Source of the DNA: a virus
IMG/VR virus record: IMGVR_UViG_3300027712_001108
Coordinates: 1 to 64,000 of that record
Reading direction: 5' to 3' (one strand)
Length of the DNA: 64,000 bases
The notes below the pieces were generated by a model, which was given only the letters and a program-made list of their open reading frames with translations, was not told where the DNA came from and searched no databases. The stretch's first letter is position 1; each line of letters begins with the position of its first letter. A program made the position numbers and the translations under genes. Of the stretch, positions 22,005-61,689 are shown in pieces.

Positions 22005-22916
22005 TTACTTCAAAATTGATTTCCAGTGATATATGGTTCTATCTATACCTTCGCTGTATGAAATTGCAGGCTTCCATCCGGTTAGTTTCGTAAGTTTTTC
22101 ATTTCCGCTGTTTAACCACCATATTTCGCCATGACGTGGATCTTTTGTATTCCAATTTATAGTGCCATTCCAGTTAAGCTGCTCTGCTATATAATTTGCG
22201 CAGTCTTTTATTTTTCTTGGATCATTAGGACCTATTGTGAATATATTTTTTGCACATTTTTCTCTGTTTTCAATAACAGTCATCCATGCGTCTAACAAGT
22301 CATCTATGTAGATAAAATTTCTATAAGGTTCTGCATATCCTAAATTACACACATTACCAGTTATCATCTGGCTTATAATATGCTCTGTAACAAAAAAGTC
22401 ATTGTCTTTTCTTCCGTATGCATTTGTCTGCCTAATAGCAGCCCATTCTAATCCATATGCTCGTCCAGCATATTCAAGATATTTTTCGCAACCATATTTT
22501 GCAACTGCATACGGCGCATTTGGGTTAGGTTGTGTTTCTTCAGTGAAAATAACAGGTATTTTAAATGTGTTGGTTTGTTCAATTTCGTCTGATATTGGTT
22601 GCCATCCATACACTTCCATAGTGGATGCAAAAACAAAATATGGCATATTCTGTAATTTACTACATGCTTCAATTAGATTTACAGTTCCTATATAATTTAC
22701 TTCGCTGAAGCTTACTTGTTCATAGAAACTTTTTTGAACTTCTGTTCTTGCTGCCAAATGTATAACAATATCTGGTGCTGTTTCTTTTATTTCGATGTTA
22801 ACAGCTTTGTGATCTGTTAAATCACTTTTGAGAGATACAACTGATCCAATTTTTTGTAATCTGGCTATAAGATGTTGTCCTATAAATCCGCTGGAACCTG
22901 TTAATAAAATTTTCAT
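22005..22916 (-). CDS. NAD-dependent epimerase/dehydratase (extended SDR)
   Basis: 303 residues. The Rossmann motif is GSSGFIG (7-13) and LAARTEV follows near residue 54. The catalytic YxxxK is Y136-K140 in PYAVAKYG, with ASTMEVYG supplying the Ser/Thr of the triad. The enzyme type is that of GDP-mannose 4,6-dehydratase/UDP-glucose 4-epimerase relatives acting on nucleotide sugars. It opens the minus-strand modification cluster next to a carbamoyltransferase, supporting a role in making or altering a surface or virion glycan. The exact reaction is not assignable. Confidence 0.88.
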   Translation of the reverse strand: MKILLTGSSGFIGQHLIARLQKIGSVVSLKSDLTDHKAVNIEIKETAPDIVIHLAARTEVQKSFYEQVSFSEVNYIGTVNLIEACSKLQNMPYFVFASTMEVYGWQPISDEIEQTNTFKIPVIFTEETQPNPNAPYAVAKYGCEKYLEYAGRAYGLEWAAIRQTNAYGRKDNDFFVTEHIISQMITGNVCNLGYAEPYRNFIYIDDLLDAWMTVIENREKCAKNIFTIGPNDPRKIKDCANYIAEQLNWNGTINWNTKDPRHGEIWWLNSGNEKLTKLTGWKPAISYSEGIDRTIYHWKSILK

Positions 22917-22943
22917 TGCTAATTTCTTACTGCTAATATTGTG

Positions 22944-24428
22944 TTATGATCTAGTATATATTTTAATATTGTATTCGTTTTCAAATGCAGCAGCATCAGC
23001 TTCGTTGTTTACCATAGGTTGTCCTTTGATGTTGAGACTTGTGTTAACTAACATAGGGCATCCGGTCTCGCTATACCATCTGCGCAGTGTTTGATATAAT
23101 CCCATGTGCTGTTTGACATTTACAGTCTGTACCCTACTGGTACCATCTATATGTACTATACCGGGAAACCGAGTAGGTTCGCGACATTTGACAGTATATT
23201 GCATGTATGCATGATTATAATCTGTCATATCGAAGTATTGATTTGCATGTTCTTCTAGTATTACAGGTGCAAATGGTCTAAATGCATCTCGTCTTTTAAC
23301 AACATTTAAACGTTCTTGAATATTAGCTATGCGAGGATCTGCTAGCAAGCTGCGATTACCCAATGCTCGCGGCCCAAACTCTGCACAGCCATTGGCAACA
23401 CCTACAACTCCGCTCTTGTGTAATTCGCTTATCAGTTTACCTAATGGATATAACCCATCTATACAATGTCCCAAGTATGGGCCTTCCCAGTTGACATGTT
23501 GTTTTAGATATGCCAGTGCAGCACCAAGACTGTTGCCTGCATCTCCTGGATTTGGCATTATCCAAATGTTTTCCCATATACCTTGTGCTGCAATTGCGGC
23601 ATTTGCTACACAGTTCAATGCACAACCACCACTTAGTACAAGATTATCTGAGTTTGCTGTGGACTTTAAACATGTACTGATGCGTAATACAATATCCGTG
23701 AATATTGCTTGAGCACCAGCAGCTAAATTATGTACATCGGTAATATAAGGTTGCCAATTTAAAATACCTCTATGCATGTTGACTTTACAACGATAAAACG
23801 GCCAGCGGTTGGTTATTTCTATCAGTTCATCTAATATTACTTGCTTATATTTGTCGGGGTCGCCAAATGCAGCCATACCCATTACAATGTATTCTTCTTC
23901 GTTGGGTTTGAATCCACAGCGTTGCGTAATTGCTGTATAAAATAAACCAAGACTGTTTGGGTAGTGTGCAGCAGCAATCTTTTTAAGACTTATACCATGG
24001 CCATACCATGCAGTTGTGGTATCCCATTCTCCAATGGCGTCTATTACCAATATAGCAGCAGTATCAAACCCACTGGTATAGTAGCCACCTGCTGCATGAC
24101 TACGATGATGACTGACAGTATGCATTATTGTGTCTGACATCTGTAGTCTGTTTAAATTAGTACGTGGACCAGTCAAGGTGATATCTGACCATTGACCCGC
24201 CCATATTTCACGTGTTAATTTCAACAAGGGTTTTTCGTGCCATATCAATGCACTGGGTGTACCATAAACCAGTGCAGCATTTATCAAATCTTCAGTTATT
24301 CTGTCGTCGTTTTTTATTTTACTGTATCGTTCACTATGTGCAGCCCATACAATTTTATTGTCGTTGATTATTGAAATTGCTGCATCGTGTCCACCGCCAG
24401 ATATACCCCAAACATTGATATTTTTCAT
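22944..24428 (-). CDS. Carbamoyltransferase (NodU/CmcH/HypF-like)
   Basis: 494 residues from ATG 24428 (AAAGG upstream). The N-terminal TsaD/ASKHA-like domain has GISGGGHDAAISI and the metal-binding HHRSHAAGGYY, followed by the nucleotide region SGGCALNCVAN. The C-terminal domain shows NGCAEFGPRALGNRSLLADPR, a hallmark of the family. These enzymes carbamoylate a hydroxyl, for example on sugars of Nod factors or antibiotics, using carbamoyl phosphate and ATP. Together with the epimerase and sugar dehydrogenase it points to decoration of a glycan. It diverges from the glycosyltransferase-like gene at 24509. Confidence 0.93.
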   Translation of the reverse strand: MKNINVWGISGGGHDAAISIINDNKIVWAAHSERYSKIKNDDRITEDLINAALVYGTPSALIWHEKPLLKLTREIWAGQWSDITLTGPRTNLNRLQMSDTIMHTVSHHRSHAAGGYYTSGFDTAAILVIDAIGEWDTTTAWYGHGISLKKIAAAHYPNSLGLFYTAITQRCGFKPNEEEYIVMGMAAFGDPDKYKQVILDELIEITNRWPFYRCKVNMHRGILNWQPYITDVHNLAAGAQAIFTDIVLRISTCLKSTANSDNLVLSGGCALNCVANAAIAAQGIWENIWIMPNPGDAGNSLGAALAYLKQHVNWEGPYLGHCIDGLYPLGKLISELHKSGVVGVANGCAEFGPRALGNRSLLADPRIANIQERLNVVKRRDAFRPFAPVILEEHANQYFDMTDYNHAYMQYTVKCREPTRFPGIVHIDGTSRVQTVNVKQHMGLYQTLRRWYSETGCPMLVNTSLNIKGQPMVNNEADAAAFENEYNIKIYTRS

Positions 24429-24508
24429 AAGTGCACCTTTTAAATTTCTGGAATAACACAGCTTTACTATACATATATAGTATAATAACAGTAAGATAAG
24501 AATTAAAA

Positions 24509-25741
24509 ATGACAATTTATATATTGTACCACAATGTTAGATCTGACACAATACCGCAATGGAATTATATACCAGATGTCTCAGTACTGTTAAAAAACTG
24601 GCCAACCAATGTAGAACAGTTTGATTTGCGATTAGACAGCATGCCCAATACAGATGTTGCATATGCAAAAATAGAAGATGTGCCTGAGCGTAGCAATTGG
24701 TTATATTCATTGAACAATCTGTATAATCATGATTTATATAGACGCTCAGATTTAACCATACTTGATTATTTTAAGTCTGTGCCTCGTCTTATGTCAGATC
24801 TTATAGCAGGGTATGGTAGAATAATGTATGACGATAGACGCGAAGGATATCTATATCCCAACTATGTAAAGGCGGAAATAGAGGGATTTTTCAAACTATA
24901 CGGTATACCACTAGACAGAGTGGTATTTGCAACTGGTACTGCTAACAGTGCCGACATATTCAGTCGTAATGGTTATACTATGCAGCCATTATACCTACAA
25001 CAATTTGAATTGGAATCAAGTTGTGCTGTACAAAATTGGCCAACTACACCACCGCAACGTCACATAGACCGGCGATTTTTATGCTTTAACCGTTCATATC
25101 AATATAGAGTACATCGATTACAATTGCTAGCTAAAATGTATAGAAGGAATTTATTAGATCAATTCTATTACAGTATGTTAGATGGTGTGGACAGGACAGA
25201 CGTAGTAACATCTGCTATGCGAGTTATGGGAGTAGAACCTAACAGTTATGATACAGCGGGTGCTATGCGTGAACTAAAGTCGCGCATGCCAATGTTATTA
25301 GACACAGATGATTTACAAACCAATCTGGCATGGGTTCACACAGAGTCTGTGGAATCATACTACAATCGCACGGGTATTAGCGTAGTAACAGAAACACTGT
25401 TTCATGACAATGAAATATTTTTCAGTGAAAAGACATGGCATCCAATGCGTATGCAGCAACCATTTATATTGGTAAATGGACCTGGGTCGCTACAGCATTT
25501 GCGAGATCTGGGGTACATGACATTTGACCATTGGTGGGACGAAAGTTATGATACAATAGTCAATTCCTATGAGCGACTGGATGCCATAGAACAATTGATA
25601 ACGGATATTGCAGCATGGCCAGACAGTAAATTTATACAGTTTGTAAAGGAATCTCAAATTGTTTGTCAACATAACTTGGCTCATTTGGCAACCGCACACA
25701 CTCGCATCGATTATAACCAACGACTTATTGCACTGTTTTAG
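24509..25741 (+). CDS. Glycosyltransferase-like protein with FxSEKxW motif, paralogue 1
   Basis: 410 residues. Residues about 285-345 contain TETLFHDNEIFFSEKTWHPM followed by QQPFILVNGPGSLQHLRDLG and DHWWDESYD. The same block is present in the protein at 42121-43380 (TETHAFDEPHNLFISEKLWKP, then QQPFMLL). The 'EK-x-W/F-x-P' block resembles the nucleotide-sugar-binding part of GT-B glycosyltransferases such as the fucosyltransferase/exostosin group. The only plus-strand gene in this part of the cluster; its end overlaps the convergent sulfotransferase-like gene by 17 nt. The sugar donor and acceptor are unknown. Confidence 0.65.
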   Translation: MTIYILYHNVRSDTIPQWNYIPDVSVLLKNWPTNVEQFDLRLDSMPNTDVAYAKIEDVPERSNWLYSLNNLYNHDLYRRSDLTILDYFKSVPRLMSDLIAGYGRIMYDDRREGYLYPNYVKAEIEGFFKLYGIPLDRVVFATGTANSADIFSRNGYTMQPLYLQQFELESSCAVQNWPTTPPQRHIDRRFLCFNRSYQYRVHRLQLLAKMYRRNLLDQFYYSMLDGVDRTDVVTSAMRVMGVEPNSYDTAGAMRELKSRMPMLLDTDDLQTNLAWVHTESVESYYNRTGISVVTETLFHDNEIFFSEKTWHPMRMQQPFILVNGPGSLQHLRDLGYMTFDHWWDESYDTIVNSYERLDAIEQLITDIAAWPDSKFIQFVKESQIVCQHNLAHLATAHTRIDYNQRLIALF

Positions 25742-26375
25742 CAGCTCGTTTGGCCTCGGGTGTTAATATGCTTTTAACATGATCATCTAACCAATATGGA
25801 TCAGCTGCATGTATATATTTTGTATTGGCATCTAGTTTGAGTATATCGTCTATTTGCGGATCATCCCAGCTTAATGGGAAGTTCAACCAATGTGACAGAC
25901 TTTTGATGTATTGTCTACGATACAAGTACAACAATTCCTGGCCAATGTAAAATGGCGGCACAGACATCCATTGCAACAGTTGCGGCATATTACCCCATGT
26001 TGGCCCGCCGCGCAAACGAGTCTGTTGGTATGTGAGTATGTTTTGATCTCGGCCTATGACCACAGGCTGTACATCAATGCCAAGACTTTCTACTTTTGAC
26101 ATAAAATCAAAAATAGGAGGCACTTTAGGCAACCAATTTTCTATGTAGGGATTTGATATACTGGTCACTGCATACTTTTTACCACCCATTATATCAAGAT
26201 CGATCTTGTCTATGTTGTTCCAATAGTAGTTGAACGGTTCTTGATAATGTGGAATAAAATATCCATCTGGCCTGAGAGCATCTTTCCATCCATGCACATC
26301 TGTATGCATGCTGAATATTTTGCCAAACAAATGATTACCAGACCCTTGCGGACCGAATAGAACAATCATTTTCAT
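25725..26375 (-). CDS. P-loop sulfotransferase-like protein A
   Basis: 216 residues starting MKMIVLFGPQGSGNHLFGKI. The GPQGSGNHL loop resembles the PAPS-binding or P-loop of the sulfotransferase superfamily rather than a Walker A with GKS/T. A second element, VVIGRDQNILTYQQ, fits the 3'-phosphate-binding strand with its Arg. Its start overlaps the stop of the second sulfotransferase-like gene (TGAAAATG). If active it would move a sulfo group to a sugar or protein hydroxyl; a GDP- or ATP-dependent kinase role cannot be excluded. Confidence 0.6.
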   Translation of the reverse strand: MKMIVLFGPQGSGNHLFGKIFSMHTDVHGWKDALRPDGYFIPHYQEPFNYYWNNIDKIDLDIMGGKKYAVTSISNPYIENWLPKVPPIFDFMSKVESLGIDVQPVVIGRDQNILTYQQTRLRGGPTWGNMPQLLQWMSVPPFYIGQELLYLYRRQYIKSLSHWLNFPLSWDDPQIDDILKLDANTKYIHAADPYWLDDHVKSILTPEAKRAAKTVQ

Positions 26376-27001
26376 ACAGTCATTACCTTTATGCCGCTGG
26401 TCTTATAATCTTGCAAATATTCTCGTGGCGGCAATGCAATATGCAATGCATTGGCCAATTGGTGATTGTTGGTAATATCCAATCTTGCACTATGTCGTGC
26501 GGCAAAATCTATAATATCTGCATTTTGTTGATCTATATGCATGGCCATCATTTCTAAATTGCTGTAGTATTGATAGTTGGGATAGGTTATGTTGAACTGC
26601 CCACAGCGTACCCACCATCCAAGGCATGCGTCATTGGGACGATGTACAAGAACTATCGTACAGTCCGGCCACGTTTCTCGTATATAATCTAGATGATGGC
26701 AAAATACATGACTTTTGATAATGCGTACACCCTCTCCTGAGAATGGTCTATCGAATTCTGCTTCTGCTGTGTGCTTGGCCAGTTGTGGTAACTGCATAAA
26801 CTGTTTGCCGAACTCCATACCAGGATCGAAGTATGCACCAAGATGCATGAGATCTGGCTGTCCCCATGCAGAATGATAATATGTTCTATTGCTGCTGTAG
26901 TCAGACCTGTCAATGTCTATACTGTAGTAAATGTTTTTGCACACCGAGCTCCATTTGGAACCCGGTGCACCTGCCATAAAAATATATTTTGGCAATGTCA
27001 T
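26372..27001 (-). CDS. P-loop sulfotransferase-like protein B
   Basis: 209 residues. It begins with YIFMAGAPGSKWSSVCKNIY, where GAPGSKWS takes the place of the PAPS-loop. The IIKSHVFCHHLDYI stretch fits the family's 'KSH' strand, and CTIVLVHRPNDACLGWW the 3'-phosphate site. Very similar short proteins occur in marine T4-like phages. It lies between the symporter and the other sulfotransferase-like gene in one overlapping minus-strand set. The acceptor is unknown. Confidence 0.65.
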   Translation of the reverse strand: MTLPKYIFMAGAPGSKWSSVCKNIYYSIDIDRSDYSSNRTYYHSAWGQPDLMHLGAYFDPGMEFGKQFMQLPQLAKHTAEAEFDRPFSGEGVRIIKSHVFCHHLDYIRETWPDCTIVLVHRPNDACLGWWVRCGQFNITYPNYQYYSNLEMMAMHIDQQNADIIDFAARHSARLDITNNHQLANALHIALPPREYLQDYKTSGIKVMTV

Positions 27002-27004
27002 TGT

Positions 27005-28462
27005 CTAGTCTTTGACTGCGGTCAATTTGGTAATGCCCAATGCAAGTGCACCAGATCCAAACACAGCAAGACAAGTGCCAAGCACTGCAATGTTAGGGCC
27101 GCCGCCGAAGTTTTGACCGTATACATAAGTCGAGAACCCAACTAGGTACGCAATCAAAACACCCCAGAACATACCAGCTTCGTTGACTAACTTTTGATTT
27201 AGTAGACTAAACATCAGTGGGAACCAAACTGTTGCACGCAAAATACCAAAGAACAGGAAGATGGTAATCAATGTCATACCCGGCCAGTTGGCAAGTGTAA
27301 GACCTGCTGCAATCAACAGAACCATGCCTATACGACCATATGCAATGCTGGACTCGTCGCCTGCATCTGGCTTGGCCATGTTTTTGACATCATGCCCAAA
27401 TATATTGGACACAGAGCTAAGTTGCGAATCCAGCACAGACACCAGTCCTGCGAACAACATAAACAGATACATTATAGCAGCCCATGCAGGCAGCAAACTG
27501 CCAACTGTGATGATGTTCACATACCCCAACAGTTCTTTTGGAATCTCATAATGCATGCCAGCAGCAGTGAATCCCAGTAGACCAGTCAGCAAGGGTGTGA
27601 TGACAAAGATAAATGCACCGCCTACAAATGACTTGATAACTGCACCTTTGCGCACTGCAAATGCACGTTGATAGAACGCATTATCGCCCCATGGTGCACC
27701 CATGTGGCCTATGGCAGTTGAGAAGCCAAATCCCATGAACACGCCCAGTGCAAAATCAGTGCCAATGATACTGCGACCATTGCCAGTGATGCCGCCCAGT
27801 CCTAGATCTACTATATCCCAGCCGCCTGCTGTGCCAATTGCCCATGGAACAATTACAGCCAGGCCCAATACCAACACGGTCAATTTGAAAATTTCAGTGA
27901 CAACTGATGCTTTCAATCCGCCACGTATGGTATAAGTCAATGCAATTGCTGCAAGTATAAAGCTAACAGTATGATAGCTCATGCCTGTCAGCACTTCAAC
28001 AGACTTGGATCCTGCCAGTACGTTGATGGCAAAAGAACAGATTGCCAACATGCCAAGTTCTATCATAAACAGACCTTGTACTCGTTTGCCGAACTGTTCT
28101 TTGAGATAACCTGAAATGGTAAATCCATCTGGCTTCTTGTTGCGCAGTCTATTGGCAAACCAAGAAAAGAATATCAGCGACAAAAAGTTGCCTATACAAA
28201 ACCAAAACAGTCCCACAAGGCCATTTTGGTAAGCTTGCTGTGCTGATATGAACATACCAGGTGCCCACATCCATGCTGCACCTGTGCTCATTGCACCTTG
28301 TAAAGGACTGAGTTTGCGTTTTGCAACAAAGAATCCTTCCTTGCTAGTGGCGTATCCGCTAGCAAATACCCATGTCAATCCAAACACAATTGCAGCATAC
28401 ATTGCAAGAACAATGCCACCTGTGCCGGGAGTAAACAAGGGGAATAATGTAGTAAAATCCAT
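27005..28462 (-). CDS. Sodium:solute symporter family (SSS) transporter
   Basis: 485 residues from ATG 28462 (GGAG 7 nt upstream), the normal length of the family. There are about 12-13 hydrophobic segments. GAMSTGAAWMWAPGMFISAQ and the long unwound helix region match the LeuT-fold SSS proteins, and AGLVSVLDSQLSSVSNIFGHD is the family signature near the sodium-binding helix 8. It is an inner-membrane sodium-driven uptake system for a small solute such as urea, an amino acid or a sugar acid. A complete secondary transporter in a phage genome is rare; it sits inside the modification operon, with its start region overlapping the gene upstream. Confidence 0.92.
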   Translation of the reverse strand: MDFTTLFPLFTPGTGGIVLAMYAAIVFGLTWVFASGYATSKEGFFVAKRKLSPLQGAMSTGAAWMWAPGMFISAQQAYQNGLVGLFWFCIGNFLSLIFFSWFANRLRNKKPDGFTISGYLKEQFGKRVQGLFMIELGMLAICSFAINVLAGSKSVEVLTGMSYHTVSFILAAIALTYTIRGGLKASVVTEIFKLTVLVLGLAVIVPWAIGTAGGWDIVDLGLGGITGNGRSIIGTDFALGVFMGFGFSTAIGHMGAPWGDNAFYQRAFAVRKGAVIKSFVGGAFIFVITPLLTGLLGFTAAGMHYEIPKELLGYVNIITVGSLLPAWAAIMYLFMLFAGLVSVLDSQLSSVSNIFGHDVKNMAKPDAGDESSIAYGRIGMVLLIAAGLTLANWPGMTLITIFLFFGILRATVWFPLMFSLLNQKLVNEAGMFWGVLIAYLVGFSTYVYGQNFGGGPNIAVLGTCLAVFGSGALALGITKLTAVKD

Positions 28463-28463
28463 C

Positions 28464-29195
28464 TTATTCTCCATGTAGATGTTTGTGAATCGCCAGTTCA
28501 ACAGGACTCGGTTCTGTCTTACTGGATAGTGTGAGTAATGCATCTGTATAAGGCTGCTGTAACAGTTGCATCTGTTGTAGTGTAGATGTAAACAACTGGC
28601 TGTCAATCATTGCCCATCCAAGATGCGCTGCAATTTTTGTATATAGCACAGTGGGATCTGCTGTTAATATTTCTGTCATGCCCAAGCGCATAAAGCGTGT
28701 ATCTTCGATTGTGCGCACGGTTGTGTTAGCCATGTCAAATTGCAAACGATCATATAGTTGAGAGTCGTTGCTGATCTCCATCATACCGTACCAACGGTCT
28801 TTGTCCATTTGACGTTCATTGCGCAAGTATCTAACATAGTGTTCGCTGTCATCCACACATTCTATCAGTATCGCACGATCTGTGGGTCTCATCCATTCTA
28901 CGGTCTTTGCCACCGCAACATTGATATCTTCGCCTACACCTGCGGGCCAACCTGCATATATTGAATAGCCCCATGGGTTATCGTGGTCGCGAGAATCCGC
29001 CAATGCTTGCATAAAATCTGTGTTGCGTTTGATTTTACAAAAGCTGGCATATGCATGACTGGACCCATTGGGTTTCAATGGATTGTCAAGTATTGCAGGT
29101 TCGTGCTTGCTGCGTTCTAGAGAAAATCTGTCAACCATCCAACTGACAAAGCTGCCAAATGATCCGGGCTGATACAGTATGCAAACAGTGGTCAC
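28464..29195 (-). CDS. P-loop-like hypothetical protein (243 aa), GTG start
   Basis: Read from GTG 29195, which overlaps the preceding stop (GTGA). The first residues are VTTVCILYQPGSFGSFVSWM. The YQPGSFGSF loop parallels the ILYSSGTGGEFL start of the gene at 37633-38484 and the nucleotide loops of the neighbouring sulfotransferase-like genes, so it may be a distant member of that superfamily. RAILIECVDDSEHYVRYL lies near the middle. No ATG fits the conserved start. Function uncertain. Confidence 0.6.
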   Translation of the reverse strand: MTTVCILYQPGSFGSFVSWMVDRFSLERSKHEPAILDNPLKPNGSSHAYASFCKIKRNTDFMQALADSRDHDNPWGYSIYAGWPAGVGEDINVAVAKTVEWMRPTDRAILIECVDDSEHYVRYLRNERQMDKDRWYGMMEISNDSQLYDRLQFDMANTTVRTIEDTRFMRLGMTEILTADPTVLYTKIAAHLGWAMIDSQLFTSTLQQMQLLQQPYTDALLTLSSKTEPSPVELAIHKHLHGE

Positions 29196-29938
29196 AGCTT
29201 GACCACTCGCATTGGCAGATGCACAGCAGCCTGTGCTGCTGCTACAATCTCTAAAGTCCTTGCAGTTTGTTTGCCAGTGATTTGGAGTAGTGGACGAGAT
29301 TTCCAACCTGCATTGACAGTGGCATGCGGCATGTCCTGCCATTCCCATGTAATACAAGTGCCTGCGGTCCATTGATGGTATAGGGCATTGCCAAACATCC
29401 ACGCTTGGCCCATTTCCCAATCGGCTAGCATTACTGCGAATCTGCGCATGATAGCAGGATTTTTATCCATGTCAGTTACTTTGAAACTGTTCTCACGCTC
29501 AGGTCGTGCTGCAAAATTGTCAATGTGAAAATGCAGCATTTGACCAGTGGTTTGATTATGAAATTTAATCATGGGATCTTCTAGTCCAAGATAATCTGCA
29601 ATTTGGTGAAATACTGCAATATCTTCTGCGGCAGTTCTTGAAAACACTTCTGCATGCGGACTTGCGCCCGCATTGATAAGGTCTTGTTCTTCTGCGTTGG
29701 CAGTGTACAATCCTTGTTCTGCAATGGTTTTATTGAAATTGTTTCTTGTGCCCCAGGTGCTGACCTGTGTGCGTGGCATACATTCTGATATGGCATCTGT
29801 AAAATCTGTATCGAAAATGCAAACAGGGGTGTAACTGTCTTTGCCCAACTGTGGTGCACGAGTGTTATCAAAATGCCAACTGCTCTTAGATGTGGTATAT
29901 TCCCATCTACTACCGTTCCAATCTTCGTATTCTGACAT
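29192..29938 (-). CDS. 2OG-Fe(II) oxygenase-like protein A
   Basis: 248 residues, start MSEYEDWNGSRWEYTT (an ATG 12 nt earlier is also possible). The candidate iron site is HFHIDNF (H-x-D) in the middle and a distal His in MPHATVN about 75 residues later. The Arg in KSRPLLQITG would bind 2-oxoglutarate. Spacing fits the double-stranded beta-helix dioxygenases. Such enzymes hydroxylate amino-acid side chains, sugars or nucleobases. It heads an overlapping minus-strand set with the GTG gene, symporter and sulfotransferase-like genes. Confidence 0.65.
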   Translation of the reverse strand: MSEYEDWNGSRWEYTTSKSSWHFDNTRAPQLGKDSYTPVCIFDTDFTDAISECMPRTQVSTWGTRNNFNKTIAEQGLYTANAEEQDLINAGASPHAEVFSRTAAEDIAVFHQIADYLGLEDPMIKFHNQTTGQMLHFHIDNFAARPERENSFKVTDMDKNPAIMRRFAVMLADWEMGQAWMFGNALYHQWTAGTCITWEWQDMPHATVNAGWKSRPLLQITGKQTARTLEIVAAAQAAVHLPMRVVKL

Positions 29939-30067
29939 TTTTATACCCATTCTTTCAAATATATTACAGTATATATCATTTTTATTGGTTCTATAAAAAA
30001 AATGTGTAAAATTTAGAATAAATTATACGATGCGTATTTTACAATCTGCCATACATGGAAAATTGCA

Positions 30068-30802: not shown

Positions 30803-30827
30803 TGAACCGATATTTTATTGGTTCATT
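30801..30827. terminator. Bidirectional terminator between convergent genes
   Basis: AATGAACC (30801-30808) pairs with GGTTCATT (30820-30827) across an 11-nt loop. T-rich tails occur on both sides. It overlaps both stop codons, of the methyltransferase and of the radical SAM gene. Confidence 0.75.
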
Positions 30828-31891: not shown

Positions 31892-31894
31892 TGA

Positions 31895-32647: not shown

Positions 32648-32668
32648 AATTATTCCTTAAATTTTACG

Positions 32669-32676
32669 TATTTATA
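32669..32676 (-). promoter_or_regulatory. Late promoter box TATAAATA (exact)
   Basis: Exact TATAAATA on the minus strand overlapping the stop of the B12-type radical SAM gene. It would drive the oxygenase and the SPASM-type radical SAM gene, and is evidence that at least part of the cluster is expressed late. Confidence 0.65.
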
Positions 32677-38484: not shown

Positions 38485-38502
38485 GCAAAATTAATCCTAA
38501 CT

Positions 38503-40766: not shown

Positions 40767-40788
40767 GATAATCTTTCTGTTTAAATTA

Positions 40789-41970
40789 TTATATATCGAG
40801 TACAGTTCTGTTTCTCGTATCACCATAATGTACAACAGTTATACCATTCTGTGCATTCGCTGTTCGCCAAGGATCTATTACAACACTACCTGGTGCCATC
40901 ATGTTTAGTATGTTGGTATAATCTCTCTGGTGTCCCAACAAGTATGTAGACGGGTTTTCTCTATCTACATTGTCATAGCTAATATCAGCACCTAACTGAA
41001 CACAGTAGTGTCCCACCAACATGCCATAACTACCATCTGTGTAAGGCACACCGGGTTTAAAGCTTTTGCCTAGTATGTGTACAGGTAATCCGTACTTGAC
41101 CAATGCGTGTGCTAGATTTTCTGCCTGTACTTCCCTTGCACGCATAATAGAATCGAACAGATCGTAACCAAGATTTAATTCTTCTGCAAGCCATCGCAGT
41201 GCAATATTATCACGAGGATGACAGGGTCCGCCATCACCCATACCGGGTTTCATATATGCAGGGCCCATGATACGATATGTGCTGTCTGCCAATGCTTTTG
41301 CAACTACATCTACATTCATATGCCCTATGCGTTCTGCTACATCTTGTATCATGTTTACTAGACTAAGTTTGGCAGAAATAAAAGTATTGTAGAATATTTT
41401 AGTGCTTTCCATTTCTTCCCACGTACCTGTCACAGTTCGTGCAGTTCTACCTGATACGTGTTCGTAGAATGTTAGCAGCGAGTTTACAGTATCGGTATAT
41501 TCACCATCTGCTGTGCCAACCATAATCATTTCGGGATCGCAGAAATCTTCTGCTACTGTACCCATTGCTATAAGATAAGGATTGTATATCAACTGTGCAT
41601 TGGGTATAACAGGTGCCAATAGTCTTCGTACTGTACCAGGCAACACTGTGCTGATTAATACAACTGTATTGTTTGAATCCACATACTGATTAATTTCGGT
41701 CAATACTGAAATTACATACGAGTAATCAAAGTCTTTGTTTTCAAGATGGCTGGTTGGTTTGCTGCCATCGTAATTGGGATCATGGGGTGTTGGCACAGCA
41801 ATAAAAATCAATTTACTATTTGATACTAGGTATTTGAGATCATTTGTTATATTGACAACATTGCTTGTAAACGGTTGGATATCATATCCAATAACAGAAT
41901 GTTTGGATGCCATTGCTTCTGCAACAGGCATGCCTAGCTTGCCTAAACCTATAAATCCAACAGTTGCCAT
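40789..41970 (-). CDS. UDP-glucose/GDP-mannose-type nucleotide-sugar dehydrogenase
   Basis: 393 residues. The Rossmann motif is GFIGLGKLGMP (5-15). The central helix is TKIFYNTFISAK. The catalytic cysteine is C250 in GMGDGGPCHPRDN, and the C-terminal NAD/UDP-binding domain includes ILGKSFKPGVPYTDGS. It would oxidise a UDP-hexose or related sugar to the uronic acid with two NAD+. With the epimerase, carbamoyltransferase and glycosyltransferases it is the best evidence that the cluster handles sugars. GGGG precedes the ATG. Confidence 0.92.
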   Translation of the reverse strand: MATVGFIGLGKLGMPVAEAMASKHSVIGYDIQPFTSNVVNITNDLKYLVSNSKLIFIAVPTPHDPNYDGSKPTSHLENKDFDYSYVISVLTEINQYVDSNNTVVLISTVLPGTVRRLLAPVIPNAQLIYNPYLIAMGTVAEDFCDPEMIMVGTADGEYTDTVNSLLTFYEHVSGRTARTVTGTWEEMESTKIFYNTFISAKLSLVNMIQDVAERIGHMNVDVVAKALADSTYRIMGPAYMKPGMGDGGPCHPRDNIALRWLAEELNLGYDLFDSIMRAREVQAENLAHALVKYGLPVHILGKSFKPGVPYTDGSYGMLVGHYCVQLGADISYDNVDRENPSTYLLGHQRDYTNILNMMAPGSVVIDPWRTANAQNGITVVHYGDTRNRTVLDI

Positions 41971-42014
41971 TATATTACCCCGTGTACAGTACTACAGTAT
42001 AATGCAATAACTCG

Positions 42015-42119: not shown

Positions 42120-42120
42120 G

Positions 42121-43380
42121 TTATAATCCTTTGTTGTAAATTGACATAAATTTATCGTATGCAGGCGTAGTAAACCAGTTCCTGCTAAGGAACCATTGCT
42201 GATTGTGATGACAGATTTCTTTCACTTGCTCTAGCCAACTCCATTTGTCTTTCACATAACTGATGTTTTGTAAATTGCGTACAATAGCAGAAACTCTATC
42301 TGCAAATGGTGCATCGTCGTAGCTTTCATCCCATAGTGTGTCAAATGTTTCAAACCCCCACGACTTTAATTTAGCCAAAGTTCCAGGGTGTGCCAACAAC
42401 ATAAATGGTTGCTGCGCCCATAACGGCTTCCATAATTTTTCACTAATAAACAAGTTATGCGGTTCATCAAATGCATGTGTTTCTGTTACCACACTTGCCC
42501 AACTGTTGAGATAGATACTGGGATTAATCTGCATGGCTTTGTTGTTGTCAAAATCTGCATCATCCACTACCAAAGGCAGCACAGCATTGGCTTTGTCTAT
42601 TACACTTTGTGGCACATCATGCCGTGTCCAAAAATCATATACCAGCTTGTTGTGGCTTATCATTCCCTGTAAATGCAAATCCTGCTCTATTAAACGCATT
42701 GCCATAACTTCTCTGTGATTGCGACTAACACGATTCAAACAGTTAAACAGTTTTACTGTATGTGGCCGTTGTTTGGCTTGTCTGTGATCATCCCATGTCA
42801 CTGCTGTGCTACGACGCAAATTCAATTGCTGCATATACATCAAATGTGGAAACCCAATGACGCCAATGCGTTCTCGTATACTGTGACTATCGCACCACTC
42901 TGCATAGCCGCGTTCTTCTAAATCATTGCCACTTAAAAACAGCATACTTGCGGCGGGTATTGCATTATCGTTACATAGTTTATGTAGGTATGCATATAGT
43001 TTGGTATCATAGAACCCTTCGTTTAGATTGTCTACAACCAACAATGCACGACCTGCACGAGCATCGTCTAACACCACACTTGGTACAAAATTAATAAATG
43101 GTTCGTATCCAAATTCATTACCAGGCCACCCTGTCCAGTAACCAGCATCGTTCCATGTGCCTATATTATATGCATATCTCTCGGGTCTGTTATCCAATCC
43201 ACTATGATGCCAATGATGATCGGGTCTATCCCACCAGTTTAATCGCCAATAGTGAAACATATTAGCTACAGGAAAACGACCCGACTTTAATTCCCATCTG
43301 GGCCCGTGTGTGGTATGCGGGCATGCTGTCATAGTCCTAAAGCGTGCAGGGTCGTCAAATACCCAATGTACTGCTGTCAT
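42121..43380 (-). CDS. Glycosyltransferase-like protein with FISEKLW motif, paralogue 2
   Basis: 419 residues. The block TETHAFDEPHNLFISEKLWK, QQPFMLLAHPGTLAKLKSWG, DTLWDESYDD near residues 300-365 is homologous to that in the gene at 24509-25741. The N-terminus is different (Trp/His-rich, FRTMTACPHTTHGPRW). The middle has KLFNCLNRVSRNHREVMAMR, similar to FLCFNRSYQYRVHRL of the paralogue. It is likely a GT-B-type transferase. Its start overlaps the next radical SAM gene by 4 nt, so sugar transfer and radical chemistry are produced from one transcript. Confidence 0.65.
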   Translation of the reverse strand: MTAVHWVFDDPARFRTMTACPHTTHGPRWELKSGRFPVANMFHYWRLNWWDRPDHHWHHSGLDNRPERYAYNIGTWNDAGYWTGWPGNEFGYEPFINFVPSVVLDDARAGRALLVVDNLNEGFYDTKLYAYLHKLCNDNAIPAASMLFLSGNDLEERGYAEWCDSHSIRERIGVIGFPHLMYMQQLNLRRSTAVTWDDHRQAKQRPHTVKLFNCLNRVSRNHREVMAMRLIEQDLHLQGMISHNKLVYDFWTRHDVPQSVIDKANAVLPLVVDDADFDNNKAMQINPSIYLNSWASVVTETHAFDEPHNLFISEKLWKPLWAQQPFMLLAHPGTLAKLKSWGFETFDTLWDESYDDAPFADRVSAIVRNLQNISYVKDKWSWLEQVKEICHHNQQWFLSRNWFTTPAYDKFMSIYNKGL

Positions 43381-44621
43381 GGTCTTAACTGTGCCAATCT
43401 AGGCAAATAATCCTGCATTTTACGTGATTTTAATTGGTCAAGTAGATCAGCATCGTGCCAAAACTGCTCCCATGAATCTTCAGGCCAGTCTTTGAAATTG
43501 TATATTACCATGTCTGTTGCAGCCGTATCCATGTAATTGAGCGCACCTTGCCAACTGCTATAGTTACGTTGAGTTTCGTGTCCCAACAGCGACTGTTCTA
43601 CTTCTGCACGTATTTCCCGTTTGGCATGTCTGGGTAATAATCGTACATCTTGATATGTGGGTTGATAGACAATGTTCACAAACGGCAAGCCTGCAAAACA
43701 CTGTTGCTGGGTAGTCCATTCAATAAGTTCTGCAACGTTGAAACAATTGTAAATTCCAAACGTGGTATGCAGTTCCAACTTGATATTAGGTGCTTGCAAT
43801 TCTGCAATCCGCTGTAGGTTATGACTGATAATACGCCAATCGCTGTTCTGTCGTATATAATCATTGGCAATACCCACAGCTTCTACGCTGACATTGATGT
43901 TTACCCATTGGAATGATTGCCACATTTTTAACAGCTTTGCAGGTACATGTGTGAGATTGGTATTGTAACTGATCTGTTGAAACTGTGCCAATCCCTGATC
44001 GATGCAGGACTGTAATATATCCATATGCTGTTTGACAATCAGTGGTTCGCCACCTAAGAAATTCATATGCGTAACAGAAGGTAAACTGCGATTTATCAAC
44101 TCTATTGCACCTGGGTCTTCGAACCATATTTGATGCGCACTGCGAGGATCTGCTTCAACTGATTCCCACCTGCCCAGTTTGGCCAGATCATTTTGCCACA
44201 AATGACTGTTCATCCAGTTACACATCCTGCAAACCAAATTGCATTTATTACCAAATGTAATATCCAAATATTGTATTTCGGCACCTGTTAGCAGTGTGCC
44301 ATCTGCTGCAATTGGTTTGGCCGTAGGCAGTATTCCATCTTTGGTATATACATCGTTCCATATTTGCCTAAAGCTAACACCGCCGTTATCTTCTATTTTC
44401 CAACATTTGCTGCAAGTTGGATGACGTTCACCTGCTTGTATAGACAATCTAACTGCTTTGTGTAGTTGACTGTTTAGTACATCCAATGGATCTGCACAAT
44501 CGTTGACAAATGGTTGACTGTAATCTTCCCAATGTCCGTGATTGTTGCAGCAGAGTCTAGGACGGCCAGGGCCATCCAAACTCAAACTGTTGTAAGGTAA
44601 TACACAAAATACATCTGTCAT
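43377..44621 (-). CDS. N-terminal-twitch radical SAM protein 3
   Basis: 414 residues. The N-terminal module FCVLPYNSLSLDGPG, CC at 24-25 and CSKC at 70-73 precedes the core C127-C131-C134 (CNLVCRMC), then NFLGGEPL and VSVEAVG. Overlaps at both ends (ATGA-type) tie it to the glycosyltransferase-like gene downstream and the radical SAM gene upstream. The module and core order match the proteins at 34756, 45598 and 46856. Confidence 0.92.
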   Translation of the reverse strand: MTDVFCVLPYNSLSLDGPGRPRLCCNNHGHWEDYSQPFVNDCADPLDVLNSQLHKAVRLSIQAGERHPTCSKCWKIEDNGGVSFRQIWNDVYTKDGILPTAKPIAADGTLLTGAEIQYLDITFGNKCNLVCRMCNWMNSHLWQNDLAKLGRWESVEADPRSAHQIWFEDPGAIELINRSLPSVTHMNFLGGEPLIVKQHMDILQSCIDQGLAQFQQISYNTNLTHVPAKLLKMWQSFQWVNINVSVEAVGIANDYIRQNSDWRIISHNLQRIAELQAPNIKLELHTTFGIYNCFNVAELIEWTTQQQCFAGLPFVNIVYQPTYQDVRLLPRHAKREIRAEVEQSLLGHETQRNYSSWQGALNYMDTAATDMVIYNFKDWPEDSWEQFWHDADLLDQLKSRKMQDYLPRLAQLRP

Positions 44622-45601
44622 GCTCGCTGCCTTTTGGGTATACTCATGTCAGTTCCGCAATGACAATGTGTACGTGGACAAACAACTGTACTGTATAAAT
44701 GATTCAAATTCAATGGTGTGTTCATATTGCCAATAACACCCGATACTCCGCAACTACCCATTGTAATATCACCATTTATTGCTATGTTAATGCTAGTACC
44801 AATATCACATTGCCAACCCAAAAAGAAATTGCGTCGTTCGGCAGTAAGACGATTGCTGTTCACAGGCCGTACCGTGCCGTCTGCATAGTGTTCTACTACT
44901 AAACTGTGTCCTGCACGGTTATCTGGTGTAGGCAATGACTGCTTGCTACGGTTGCTGTTCTTCATTAACCATTCGACTTTTGCAGGATCGTCATATGCAT
45001 ATGGATCGGCAGCAGTACTCATTTCATCTAGTATAGGTACATATTCCATTGTGACATTTTGCATAGTTGCCCATATCTCATCTGCACGTTCCAACATGTG
45101 ATCCCAATGTGATTCTGCCATCATCATACGAACAGCAAGATAGTTTACTTTGTCTTGTAGAAACTGTGCAGTTTCCAAAAATCTATCATGCTTTACCCAG
45201 CCAGGGTGGTAACTGGCAACCACATCATCGAACCTATGATAGTTACGTTCCCACCATACCAGAGGCTTTGACAAATTGGTATTGATTGCCAATGTGACTT
45301 TGTCTGGCAATATATTAGACAAATAATCGCATATAGGTAATAGAGCAGGCCAGTGGGTGGGTTCGCCGCCGCTAAAGAATACTTTTACTTTGCTGTATTG
45401 TTTGCCTGCTAATCCGTGAATCAGTGTATCCAAATTGCTAAGGTAAACTTCAACATTTAAGTTGGGTGTGTCTCCGCCCCAATTACCAGGATTGCAATAA
45501 CCACATCGAAAATTGCAAGTGTTACTGGTTTGCCATGTAATATTGAGTGTGAGTCCGTCTTGTGCTTCTATGGCAACTAATGCATTGTTTTCTAATATCA
45601 T
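44618..45601 (-). CDS. Radical SAM protein with C-terminal twitch module 2
   Basis: 327 residues. The core begins almost at once: C29-C33-C36 (CNFRCGYC), then FFSGGEPTHWP. The C-terminal module has GWQCDIGTSINIAINGDITM, GSCGVSG and CPRTHCHCGTD, the same pattern as 39762-40766. It overlaps its neighbours by 4 nt on both sides. In this operon N-twitch and C-twitch radical SAM genes alternate, suggesting that their products act in sequence or in pairs. Confidence 0.9.
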   Translation of the reverse strand: MILENNALVAIEAQDGLTLNITWQTSNTCNFRCGYCNPGNWGGDTPNLNVEVYLSNLDTLIHGLAGKQYSKVKVFFSGGEPTHWPALLPICDYLSNILPDKVTLAINTNLSKPLVWWERNYHRFDDVVASYHPGWVKHDRFLETAQFLQDKVNYLAVRMMMAESHWDHMLERADEIWATMQNVTMEYVPILDEMSTAADPYAYDDPAKVEWLMKNSNRSKQSLPTPDNRAGHSLVVEHYADGTVRPVNSNRLTAERRNFFLGWQCDIGTSINIAINGDITMGSCGVSGVIGNMNTPLNLNHLYSTVVCPRTHCHCGTDMSIPKRQRA

Positions 45602-46866
45602 TTGTTAGTATTAATACCATTTTTTAATTGATCAATCAAGTCTGGCCACAATACAGAATGGTCCATACTGTGCATGCTGTCGTTAACCGCCAACCAGTCA
45701 ATCAGCCGTTGTTGTGCTACGGTAGTAGCAGTTGTTTGTGACAACAACGTGGTACTCATATAATCTAAACCGTCGTGAAAATTACAATGACCGCCTCTGA
45801 CTATGGGTCGCAATGCAGTACGTAATTTGGTAATCGCTGCTGTACGATACTCTATTGGTATAACTTTGGCACTGAGATGATGCGGAAAGTCCAACATAAT
45901 AGGATACCATATGATATTTTTATCGTAGTCTTCTGCCATGTATATCAGCCACTGAATCAATGGTTCTATACTGTTGTAATTAAGGGCACCTACTACTGTG
46001 TACACTTTGAGTGTTTTTGCCACGTCATGCTTTAGATATTTTTCAAAATTACGAACTTTTTCTGTCCATACTGTGGGATAACGTATGTATTCGTCTATTT
46101 TATTCAAACCGTCTATGCTGATTTGAACTTCTGTGTTTTCGAATTTTGCAAGCCTGTCTAACAGTTTGTAATTCCACACTGTGCAATTGGTAGTAAAGCT
46201 GATATGGCATGTGGTATTGCCTGCATCCAACAGTATATCAAGGTACTGATAGATATTTGCATCCATAGTTGGTTCGCCGCCTGTTATATACAGACGTTTA
46301 AGAGTGGGTGCCATTTTGCGAAAATTTAGTTTGCTTTGTTCTGTGTTTATATAGCCATTATCTGCATACTCCACAGTTGTTTCACTGCGCCATTGGTTGT
46401 CTAACCATTCCGGCAATGCTGTATTTTCTATGGCATGTTTACGTTCTTCAGCTATTTTGCTACTGCTTCCACTCCAGCATGTAACGCATTGCAAATTACA
46501 AACAGTACCCAAACGTAATTCCAAACTGTCTGGCATGTCTGTGGCAACTGTGCGCAAGTCTTGCGCCAGTGTTGCAGCATAGTCACGGTTGGCGTGTGTA
46601 CGAGGACTGGGATTGCCAGCTGCTTCTATATTGTTACAGACTTTACAGTCTTTAACTCGTTCTCCTGCTAACATGCGTTCTCGTACTGCCTGCATATATG
46701 CGCCGTTCCATATATCATCCAGTGACTGGGTATTCCATTTTGCAGTGGTATAATCCTGATTGCGAATAACAATGTTGTCACTGATGTTGCAACAGAGTTT
46801 GCATTCTCCCTGAGGGGTCGTGTTGATATTACGCCACGCCAATGCACACAGGCTATCAGATTGCAT
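45598..46866 (-). CDS. N-terminal-twitch radical SAM protein 4
   Basis: 422 residues from ATG 46866 (AAGGGG upstream; an in-frame TTG two codons earlier is less likely). The module LCALAWRNINTTPQGECKLC is followed by MLAGERVKDCKVC. The core is C123-C127-C130 (CNLQCVTC), then YITGGEPT and ISIDGLN. It overlaps the preceding and following radical SAM genes. No partner peptide gene is visible nearby. Confidence 0.92.
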   Translation of the reverse strand: MQSDSLCALAWRNINTTPQGECKLCCNISDNIVIRNQDYTTAKWNTQSLDDIWNGAYMQAVRERMLAGERVKDCKVCNNIEAAGNPSPRTHANRDYAATLAQDLRTVATDMPDSLELRLGTVCNLQCVTCWSGSSSKIAEERKHAIENTALPEWLDNQWRSETTVEYADNGYINTEQSKLNFRKMAPTLKRLYITGGEPTMDANIYQYLDILLDAGNTTCHISFTTNCTVWNYKLLDRLAKFENTEVQISIDGLNKIDEYIRYPTVWTEKVRNFEKYLKHDVAKTLKVYTVVGALNYNSIEPLIQWLIYMAEDYDKNIIWYPIMLDFPHHLSAKVIPIEYRTAAITKLRTALRPIVRGGHCNFHDGLDYMSTTLLSQTTATTVAQQRLIDWLAVNDSMHSMDHSVLWPDLIDQLKNGINTNK

Positions 46867-48064
46867 GGTCAATGCCCCTTAATTCTGGAAAGATATCTCG
46901 CCAACTTTCGTGACGAATTTTGTCTAATTTTGCAGTTTGATGTGCCCACAGATGCAGCAATTCGCTGTCATCTTGCTCATTCATAAATGATATTATACCA
47001 GTGAACGCAGCTATGGTTTTATCTGCTGCTCCATTAGTTGACAACCAATCACAATGTCGATTTATTTTATCAGTTACACGTTGCTTTATCTGTTCGGGTA
47101 GTACTCGTGTGCTAAAATATCGCGGACTTGTCAGTTGATTAATGCGTATATTATCAATGCCAACCAGTTCATGCTGCACCCAATCTTTGTGAAAATCACT
47201 AAGGTGTTTGACATTTAACAAACTAACAGTGGGAGTTATTTCAAAATATACATGGGGTAATTCTTGTAACATGCGTTTGCGATTGGCAACAACATCTTTC
47301 CATATCATGTTCTTACGTATATACTCGCCGCGTTCTCCACTACCATCAAGACTTGCAGCCACTTGTAAATTAGGGAATTGTCTCCATAATTCAAACAAGT
47401 CGCGTTGTTTGTAATCCAGTTTGGTGAAATTGGTAGTATAGTTGAGTTTTACATCTGTTTTACCTATGCTGATCCAATGATCCAGTATACGATAGTGTTC
47501 TTCAGTCATAAGACTTTCACCACCTGCAAAGTACACTTCTTCAGTTGTAGACAAATGTGGTAACAGTTGCTCCCAAAAATCATCGCCTTGGTTTATATTC
47601 AATATTCGCGGTGCGGTATGGGTATGATCCAGTGTAACTGCATCGTCGTACCATGCACTACTCAACTGCGGGCCGCATGTTCTACAACGTAGATTACATA
47701 TATTGCTAAATCGCACATCAAAGTATGCAAGATTTACTTTTTCAACAGAGCCATCTTCTGCTGTGCTGTCTACCACAGGTTGATGATGTGCATATGCTTG
47801 ATTGCTGTTGTTACGCAGTGTAAATGTGCCGTGACGTTCCACATCATAACAACGATTACATGATGCAGATTCTTTACCTGCCAACATGTTTAATCGCAGT
47901 TCTCGCATGCGTTCACTATTCCATATGTCTTTGATAGTAGAGTCATTGGTATTGCCAATGGTCCAGTTTGTATCGCTCATGCAGCAGGGGAATACATCTC
48001 CATTAGGCCACATATGCATATGCACCCAGGGCATCATACAAAACACCTTATTGTCGGTAGTCAT
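46856..48064 (-). CDS. N-terminal-twitch radical SAM protein 5
   Basis: 402 residues. FCMMPWVHMHMWPNGDVFPC opens the twitch module, closed by MLAGKESASCNRC. The core is C123-C127-C130 (CNLRCRTC), then YFAGGESL (Ser in place of Pro in the GGEP motif) and ASLDGSG. It is the closest in pattern to the protein at 34756-35985, but the GGES change suggests a different SAM-amino-group contact. Overlap of both ends with neighbours. Confidence 0.92.
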   Translation of the reverse strand: MTTDNKVFCMMPWVHMHMWPNGDVFPCCMSDTNWTIGNTNDSTIKDIWNSERMRELRLNMLAGKESASCNRCYDVERHGTFTLRNNSNQAYAHHQPVVDSTAEDGSVEKVNLAYFDVRFSNICNLRCRTCGPQLSSAWYDDAVTLDHTHTAPRILNINQGDDFWEQLLPHLSTTEEVYFAGGESLMTEEHYRILDHWISIGKTDVKLNYTTNFTKLDYKQRDLFELWRQFPNLQVAASLDGSGERGEYIRKNMIWKDVVANRKRMLQELPHVYFEITPTVSLLNVKHLSDFHKDWVQHELVGIDNIRINQLTSPRYFSTRVLPEQIKQRVTDKINRHCDWLSTNGAADKTIAAFTGIISFMNEQDDSELLHLWAHQTAKLDKIRHESWRDIFPELRGIDHAI

Positions 48065-49440
48065 TCAATTTTTCCACATTCGTTATAGAAATCAACCAGT
48101 TCCGGAAATGTATCTACAAACTTGGTATTTCTGCGTTTATCATGCTCAGTGAACCATGCATAAAAATCTCTGCGACCTGTATACAGTTTGTCACTGCTAT
48201 AATTAGTCGTCTCCATATACCGTACCACACGACGAAATTTATCTACTTCTAAACTGCCAAATAGATTCTTATCCATGTCATCTTCGTTGGCTTCCATAAA
48301 TGCAAGACATTCATGCAAGTATGGCAAGAATTCTGCTTTGGGTAGCAGGTTGATATCGTACTGCAACGGTTCTCTTAGATATGGAGTATCAAAGCGTACA
48401 TTGCGCATGGTTCTACGCTGTTCTGTCGGCGGCGGCGCATACTGCGTTCTCCATTCCAACATTTTAGACAACAGCAATTTAAAACGCGGTACACTGAGTA
48501 TATTGTAAGTCATCATCATACTAACTGCTTGACCAGACAGTGTCATGTATGTGTTTAAGTTCTGTTCCCACTGTGTTATATCAAGTCCTGTGCGTATATA
48601 CTCTGCTTGCGTTCCCCATGTATCAATACTGGTAAACAGTGTAAAGTCTTTGATACACTTGCGGTCTATTAGATCTTTGATTTTGTTAGCAAGACGTGTA
48701 ACCAGTATGGGTTTTACACCCAGGTTGCTGTTTATGTTGAGTTCTAACTTGGGCATTGGGTTGTTAGACAAATCCTCTAGCAGTGTCCATGTGCTTTTGT
48801 GCAGCAAGGGTTCACCGCCTGTTATACGCAGAATATTAACACTGTTGCGCACACTGGGCCACCACTTCCACCATGCATCTACAAACGGATTAGATTCCTC
48901 TTCGAAGATGGTCATCCAATCTATATCGCAGCGATGATTGGTTACCATGTCGTATGGACCGTGATCGCGTATCTCATTATAGAACTTGCTGGATGCCTTG
49001 GGATGGCAGTAACCGCATTTGAAATTGCATTCGTTGCCAAAGCTGACTTCTATGTATTCTGGTGCAACAGGAAAGTCGGCACCTTTGGCTTTGATCTCGT
49101 CGTAGCGGTCCTGCCTAAAGATACTGCTGTTGCGTATGTGTCTATCGCTGATCAAATCCTTGTCAAGATTTTCAATGTTCCAGCAGTATTGGCATCCGGC
49201 TGGCTTGCGCCCGTTCAACAATGCTCTACGTTCTGCTTTCTTTTCTTCTGTATTGTGTAATGCACTGGGATCCCACCCTATTCTTTTCTCATCTATCTTG
49301 TGAGGTGCAGGATGATAGCAACTGTGTGTTTCACCTGTCTGCAAGTATATAGTGGTATGATGCCATTTGGCCATGCAGAATGTTGGACTGATGGCATCCA
49401 TCAGAGGTCTGAGTTCATCTATTCGTTTTCTATCTACCAT
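48061..49440 (-). CDS. N-terminal-twitch radical SAM protein 6
   Basis: 459 residues from ATG 49440, preceded by AAGG; the in-frame upstream start would add a hydrophobic stretch inside the promoter region. The module has FCMAKWHHTTIYLQTGETHS and CQYC after LLNGRKPAG. The core is C138-C142-C145 (CNFKCGYC), then RITGGEPLL and TSIDTWG. It is the first gene of the 19-kb minus-strand block, so any promoter for the block should lie at about 49.45-49.55 kb; TATACT-like elements are there, but none is convincing. Confidence 0.92.
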   Translation of the reverse strand: MVDRKRIDELRPLMDAISPTFCMAKWHHTTIYLQTGETHSCYHPAPHKIDEKRIGWDPSALHNTEEKKAERRALLNGRKPAGCQYCWNIENLDKDLISDRHIRNSSIFRQDRYDEIKAKGADFPVAPEYIEVSFGNECNFKCGYCHPKASSKFYNEIRDHGPYDMVTNHRCDIDWMTIFEEESNPFVDAWWKWWPSVRNSVNILRITGGEPLLHKSTWTLLEDLSNNPMPKLELNINSNLGVKPILVTRLANKIKDLIDRKCIKDFTLFTSIDTWGTQAEYIRTGLDITQWEQNLNTYMTLSGQAVSMMMTYNILSVPRFKLLLSKMLEWRTQYAPPPTEQRRTMRNVRFDTPYLREPLQYDINLLPKAEFLPYLHECLAFMEANEDDMDKNLFGSLEVDKFRRVVRYMETTNYSSDKLYTGRRDFYAWFTEHDKRRNTKFVDTFPELVDFYNECGKIE

Positions 49441-49575
49441 AACCTTAGTATATAGGTTGGACCACAGATATGCTACCAACCCAACAATAATTTTTGTCAG
49501 CTCTTGTAAATATACCACTTATGTATATATATAATGTATTCAAATAAAGTTTATGTAACAAGATGACAAAATCAC

Positions 49576-61688: not shown

Positions 61689-61689
61689 G

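Follow-up and report, generated by a model that had tools for sequence, protein, structure and literature searches.

The stretch analysed here, bases 1–64000 of the virus record IMGVR_UViG_3300027712_001108 (hereafter the window), contains between about 22 and 49.5 kb an island of eleven radical S-adenosylmethionine (SAM) genes set among genes for sugar-modifying enzymes. The full record is 157,923 bases long, is classed as linear and is probably a fragment. On balance we read the island as a module for glycan building and radical tailoring, sited in that part of a large T4-like phage genome which serves host recognition, a reading that draws on the enzyme families present, their domain layout, the conserved gene order, the difference in cassette between relatives and the linkage of the array to glycan genes. 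An initial annotation, made from the sequence letters alone, had described a single 27-kb cluster; the island is instead composed of a conserved core (40.8–49.5 kb) and an exchangeable cassette (25.7–40.8 kb) that is partly low in guanine plus cytosine (GC). Genes are named below by their first coordinate in the window.

A search with 46856 returned 29 viral loci with related arrays, the closest of which (L006) lies inside G001, a 518,643-base contig from another metagenome that carries a T4-type Gp23 capsid gene and a terminase gene. Gene order is common to the two contigs from position 9.6 kb or so through the carbamoyltransferase gene and 24509, and again from the dehydrogenase gene 40789 through the core radical SAM genes, a sigma factor and a superoxide dismutase to about 57.8 kb. 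The intervening 25.7–40.8 kb differs, spanning 15 kb here and about 7.5 kb in G001, where other N-twitch and B12-binding radical SAM genes are found. The shared flanks and core, the differing segment and the absence of the epimerase gene 22005 from the corresponding place in G001 thus define a conserved core and an exchangeable cassette. The GC content of the cassette falls to 0.34 at 30–38.5 kb against 0.43–0.44 in the flanks, and neither Gp23 capsid nor terminase found a match on the 157.9-kb fragment, both of which could be taken to indicate a misassembled or bacterial segment. However, G001 encodes both of these proteins and is collinear with the window on either side of 22 and 49.5 kb as well as through the core, and related arrays occur in the 29 viral loci; the viral-metagenome synteny that had been proposed as a check thus bears out the phage origin and integrity of the island, and we give misassembly of the island as a whole almost no credence. 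A comparison of G000 with G001 shows the core genes to be under strong purifying selection; their synonymous sites are saturated or close to it. Scans for promoters and terminators performed at chance level.

All eleven starts listed in the initial annotation proved to be real open reading frames (ORFs) with a CX3CX2C motif, and all eleven products are radical SAM proteins by profile. The radical SAM Pfam profile PF04055 matches ten of them and gives no match to 30815, which was recognized as the eleventh by a SPASM match (2e-4) and by NF033640 (E 2.6e-11) and TIGR04317 (E 2.4e-10). The subgroup profile search that had been suggested placed six proteins (34756, 35982, 43377, 45598, 46856 and 48061; 276–412 bits) beyond the curated threshold, 170 bits, for NF033640, the NCBIfam family N_Twi_rSAM, which has no named reaction; subfamily matches for 32672 fell below cut-off. 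The part of the contig beyond the window has four extra radical SAM genes, at 73.6, 77.1, 89.1 and 95.9 kb, giving at least 15 on the 157.9-kb contig.

48061–49518, minus strand: N-twitch radical SAM protein, core array gene 1 (NF033640 303 bits; CX3CX2C at 164; G001 orthologue 87% identical).
46856–48064, minus strand: N-twitch radical SAM protein, core array gene 2 (NF033640 412 bits; 29 viral relatives; SPASM at 9–73, then Radical_SAM at 118–275; structure model with a predicted local distance difference test score, pLDDT, of 82).
45598–46872, minus strand: N-twitch radical SAM protein, core array gene 3 (NF033640 276 bits; in a clade with orthologues of the L007–L017 group).
44618–45601, minus strand: C-twitch-like radical SAM protein, core array gene 4 (CX18C...CX4CXC following the barrel; PF04055 29.7 bits; the L007–L016 group has a related gene at this point of its array).
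43377–44621, minus strand: N-twitch radical SAM protein, core array gene 5 (NF033640 311 bits; forms a clade in the tree).
39762–40835, minus strand: C-twitch-like radical SAM protein, cassette (PF04055 1e-9; CX4CXC set after the barrel).
38503–39762, minus strand: radical SAM protein with CX4CXC ahead of the barrel (permuted), cassette (PF04055 1e-13, residues 215–333; Cys 46, 66, 149, 154 and 156 ahead of the radical SAM motif at 219).
35982–37646, minus strand: N-twitch radical SAM protein with an N-terminal extension, cassette (NF033640 338 bits).
34756–35985, minus strand: N-twitch radical SAM protein, cassette (NF033640 306 bits).
32672–34765, minus strand: B12-binding radical SAM protein, cassette (PF04055 5e-15, PF02310 8e-6; TIGR03975 118 bits and PhpK 114 bits, both under cut-off).
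30815–31891, minus strand: radical SAM protein with a C-terminal SPASM domain, cassette (SPASM, NF033640 and TIGR04317 matches).

The cysteine positions place an auxiliary four-cysteine twitch domain ahead of the radical SAM barrel in all six N-twitch proteins, and in 46856 these four cysteines are invariant across 18 orthologues. Proteins 38503, 39762 and 44618 form one BLAST cluster with a twitch-like set, C-X18-19-C followed by CX4CXC, and this set comes after the barrel in 39762 and 44618 and before it in 38503, an apparent domain permutation inside one family. The auxiliary cysteines of 38503 are N-terminal, though it does cluster with the C-terminal types. N- and C-twitch proteins had been thought to alternate in pairs at the core end of the island, which is unsupported because the order at 43.4–49.5 kb is N, C, N, N, N.

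The array recurs in uncultured phages, with 5–22 radical SAM matches in each of 19 related records and 21 N_Twi matches in G001. In a FastTree phylogeny of 157 N-twitch proteins, whose long branches mean that deep joins should not be over-read, 48061, 46856, 45598 and 43377 fall into four different clades, all supported and all including sequences from other phages, and the gene order 46856, 45598, 44618, 43377 is repeated in the L007–L016 group. Two arrangements recur. The first has a gene of the GT-B family described below ahead of the array and usually a B12-binding radical SAM gene inside it; the second, found in one phage group, has the array immediately downstream of genes resembling tail fibres and is followed by SGNH-type proteins and the carbamoyltransferase. 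Of 20 records, 11 have a carbamoyltransferase gene, always as a single copy; its distance from an N-twitch gene is below 11 kb in every one of these and below 5 kb in ten. Among six long records it is within 5 kb in five, with 1.25 expected (p about 0.001, or about 0.005 once a near-duplicate is removed). Phage-type arrays were also seen binned in bacterial metagenome-assembled genomes (L045, L047, L048, L053 and L079), a set assigned to Verrucomicrobia, Pelagibacter, Betaproteobacteria, Rickettsiales and Rhodobacteraceae; these are probably binning errors or hints to the hosts.

The glycosyltransferase and nucleotide-sugar genes share the gene cluster with the radical SAM array, and the companion genes are as follows.

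22005–22916, minus strand: NAD-dependent sugar epimerase/dehydratase (PF01370 1e-39).
22944–24515, minus strand: O-carbamoyltransferase of NodU/TobZ/NovN type (PF16861 3e-50, PF02543 4e-42; PDB match 8e-58; G001 orthologue 72% identical).
24509–25741, plus strand: GT-B-family paralogue of 42121 (family profile 294 bits; G001 orthologue 55% identical and in the corresponding place).
25725–26375 and 26372–27001, minus strand: two sulfotransferase-like proteins, cassette (weak PF13469 match, 0.0024, for 26372 only; 25725 labelled from a P-loop-like motif seen by eye).
27005–28606, minus strand: sodium:solute symporter (SSF), cassette (PF00474 5e-22).
29192–29950, minus strand: 2-oxoglutarate (2OG)-oxygenase-like protein, cassette (motif seen by eye; relatives directly after the carbamoyltransferase in L018 and L019).
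30068–30802, plus strand: methyltransferase-like protein, cassette (weak matches to PF13649, 0.003, and a PHROG tRNA methyltransferase, 0.0025).
31895–32647, minus strand: 2OG-oxygenase-like protein by motif only, cassette (from reading the sequence; no Pfam or PHROG match).
37633–38484, minus strand: family-less protein, cassette (sulfotransferase-like P-loop motif seen by eye; no Pfam or PHROG match).
40789–41970, minus strand: UDP-glucose/GDP-mannose dehydrogenase family, core (PF03721 2e-18, PF00984 6e-17; PDB matches to UGDH/GMD; catalytic cysteine motif GGPCHPRD).
42121–43380, minus strand: predicted GT-B-fold glycosyltransferase-like protein, core (predicted structure, pLDDT 78).

The epimerase, carbamoyltransferase, symporter and dehydrogenase named in the initial annotation are thus upheld by Pfam, and its sulfotransferase, 2OG-oxygenase and methyltransferase labels are to be regarded as tentative. 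The 28607–29191 gap left by the greedy gene caller falls inside a 318-residue ORF at 28464–29420, probably another cassette gene. Neither 42121 nor 24509 has a Pfam match, and a sequence-level comparison of the glycosyltransferase profile with the PDB returned nothing, for which reason a fold search was used. All 28 PDB matches of the 42121 predicted structure at E<=0.001 are GT-B glycosyltransferases, and 42121 is therefore predicted to be a GT-B-fold glycosyltransferase-like protein. Together with its paralogue 24509 it makes up one family, present in 27 loci.

The carbamoyltransferase raises the question of DNA hypermodification, in which it and the radical SAM enzymes would make a modified base. 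Other phages have a carbamoyltransferase, assigned to these Pfam families, whose substrate is 5-hydroxymethylcytosine and which is paired with a thymidylate-synthase-like partner resembling deoxycytidylate (dCMP) hydroxymethylase (PMC8670742). No such partner was found on the present contig, itself a fragment; the thymidylate synthases of the relatives G001 and G009 are of the canonical LPFN/VPFN asparagine type, and the best PDB matches of 22944 are antibiotic-type carbamoyltransferases. With the hydroxymethylase partner not found, hypermodification was rejected as very unlikely.

Among isolated phages, Vibrio phage K566 (L105, 161.5–168.3 kb) has four N-twitch radical SAM genes interleaved with two GT8 genes and one GT4-like gene; PagP and LpxC are encoded close to this stretch, and the phage has one further N-twitch match. 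KVP40 encodes related radical SAM proteins that are distant homologues, one of them near a PF00534 gene. These phages resemble the island in combining N-twitch proteins with glycosyltransferases (K566) or in carrying distant homologues (KVP40), but identity is 25–27%, the array is smaller, and no carbamoyltransferase or B12-binding radical SAM gene was seen in the stretch read. A near-DNA search of known phages and tblastn searches of phages with 44618 and 42121 returned nothing. In bacterial genomes a neighbourhood scan gave only a mild glycan signal; one Bacillota operon combines three N-twitch radical SAM genes with GT2, methyltransferase and ABC-2 genes.

Glycan building or decoration, as initially proposed, is the best-supported reading because of the GT-B fold, the nucleotide-sugar enzymes, the carbamoyltransferase linkage and the interleaving of radical SAM, GT8 and GT4-like genes in K566; a single, uniform and complete pathway is not supported. 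We infer the sugar substrate, the reaction types and the target, as follows. The dehydrogenase and epimerase would shape nucleotide sugars, which the GT-B enzymes would transfer; the array of N- and C-twitch proteins may then carry out radical chemistry (dehydrogenation, epimerisation or deoxygenation) on the sugar residues, methylation may fall to the B12-binding enzyme, and the product would be completed by the carbamoyltransferase and the remaining decorators. The fixed core would provide the common steps and the exchangeable cassette the strain-specific ones. The product would most likely alter the envelope glycan of the infected host or, less likely, decorate tail fibres or capsid; the host envelope is favoured over a virion target only by analogy with the literature and by the lipid A genes of K566.

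Further points in favour of glycan tailoring are the position of arrays by tail-fibre-like genes, the purifying selection, the twitch domain of BtrN and the pelagimyophage host-recognition cluster. BtrN is a twitch radical SAM cyclitol dehydrogenase, and its twitch domain is matched weakly (E 0.001, about 80 residues) by the N-terminal domain profile built from 46856 orthologues; in BtrN the twitch domain follows the barrel. The pelagimyophage cluster is hypervariable, contains tail fibres, glycosyltransferases and radical SAM cassettes that differ between close genomes, and has been proposed to change the O-chain against co-infection (2020, PMC7029224). The present island differs in having more radical SAM genes, a fixed core separable from the cassette and an occurrence in a group of large T4-like phages.

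Several observations weigh against glycan tailoring. We know of no substrate for the N-twitch radical SAM proteins, several of the decorator assignments are weak, and the N-twitch family in bacterial genome records is often present singly and in mixed neighbourhoods. GT-B genes show modest linkage to N-twitch genes, with 11 of 31 lying within 5 kb against an expected 5.8 (p 0.017), a figure biased in that the GT-B profile was built from array neighbours. The closest folds include the peptide-modifying radical SAM enzymes CteB, anSME and EpeE, all as weak matches, and the best subfamily match of 32672, below cut-off, is a peptide C-methyltransferase. These last points bear on the main rival, in which N-twitch and SPASM radical SAM enzymes would modify residues of a ribosomal peptide or of some phage protein, for instance a tail fibre, that is also glycosylated by the glycosyltransferases. 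SPASM and twitch enzymes are best known as peptide maturases, sactipeptide and other maturases are among the closest folds and subfamily models, and tail-fibre genes are neighbours of the island. Nevertheless, the cluster lacks a small precursor gene and its intergenic gaps could hardly accommodate one, although a distant precursor is possible; six of the eleven radical SAM proteins come from a family without a named reaction, and the sugar-nucleotide enzymes are left unexplained. We regard such maturation as unlikely, though deserving of attention. A Paenibacillus N-twitch copy that adjoins ketoacyl synthases likewise counts against a glycan, and it would fit a small-molecule or lipid pathway, for example one that makes a metabolite for secretion or modifies a membrane lipid, as would matches of lipid-type B12-binding radical SAM models, again below cut-off, and the SSF transporter of the cassette. 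Since profile searches of the island detected no core for polyketide, peptide-synthetase or lipid synthesis, we consider such a pathway quite unlikely.

The tail-fibre genes lie 8 kb from the island here and directly adjacent to the array in the L018–L034 group.

57765–63729, minus strand: tail-fibre genes near the island, among them 61690, a collagen-like tail fibre (PHROG tail fibre 3e-26; collagen repeat).

The large protein 57765, which adjoins 61690, has no PHROG match and its family is unassigned. Tail-fibre-adjacent proteins of clusters 3 and 6 were taken for glycosyltransferases by eye; they are not counted as such because neither PDB searches nor a comparison of profiles against a GT8 protein gave support.

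Other features of the contig include a sigma-70 factor that is full-length and comprises regions 1.2 to 4 (window 49656–51119; 78% identical in G001) and an Fe/Mn superoxide dismutase (window 51836–52369; 84% identical in G001), the latter possibly linked to the oxygen-sensitive iron–sulphur enzymes. A PstS-like periplasmic binding protein (L001:18146-19135) and a nicotinamide phosphoribosyltransferase (L003:14779-16161) on the same contig are characteristic of marine T4-like phages. At 5073–7006 the window has three paralogues in tandem, each about 200–240 residues long, with a fourth copy at L003:16205-16777, and a family of large, nearly cysteine-free paralogues, possibly virion proteins, is found at 13789–15036 of the window and at L004:16121-19593 and L005:48-2413, the far end of the contig.

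The view that no phage has a comparable set is superseded by the 29 viral loci and by TARA_ERS488813_N000010, a T4-like marine genome with 12 radical SAM genes and an iron–sulphur A-type carrier gene, which the part of the source consulted reads as iron–sulphur metabolism (Nishimura et al. 2017, PMC5332604). The likeness lies in the T4-like genome, the many radical SAM genes and the carrier, as among 10 records of relatives of the present phage six encode an A-type carrier and three encode IscU, fitting a heavy iron–sulphur demand; array order, cassette and glycan linkage do not figure in that part of the source, and the comparison is with its description of the genome. Multiple radical SAM genes in marine T4-like phages are thus already in the literature, where we found no functional account of them. 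The present results show N_Twi_rSAM genes in multi-gene arrays whose order is conserved across phage groups, link these arrays to a carbamoyltransferase and a GT-B family, and find representatives among Vibrio phage isolates; what was an oddity of annotation thereby becomes a pathway open to testing. More tentatively, large T4-like phages may possess an ancient, order-conserved radical SAM assembly line of about 20 genes in one genome, with exchangeable cassettes diversifying its product, a glycan whose new chemistry, if this possibility is true, would be absent from known phage or bacterial surface sugars. Should the glycan reading be true, radical chemistry would join the tools with which phages remodel or disguise surfaces, and the N-twitch radical SAM proteins would gain a substrate class.

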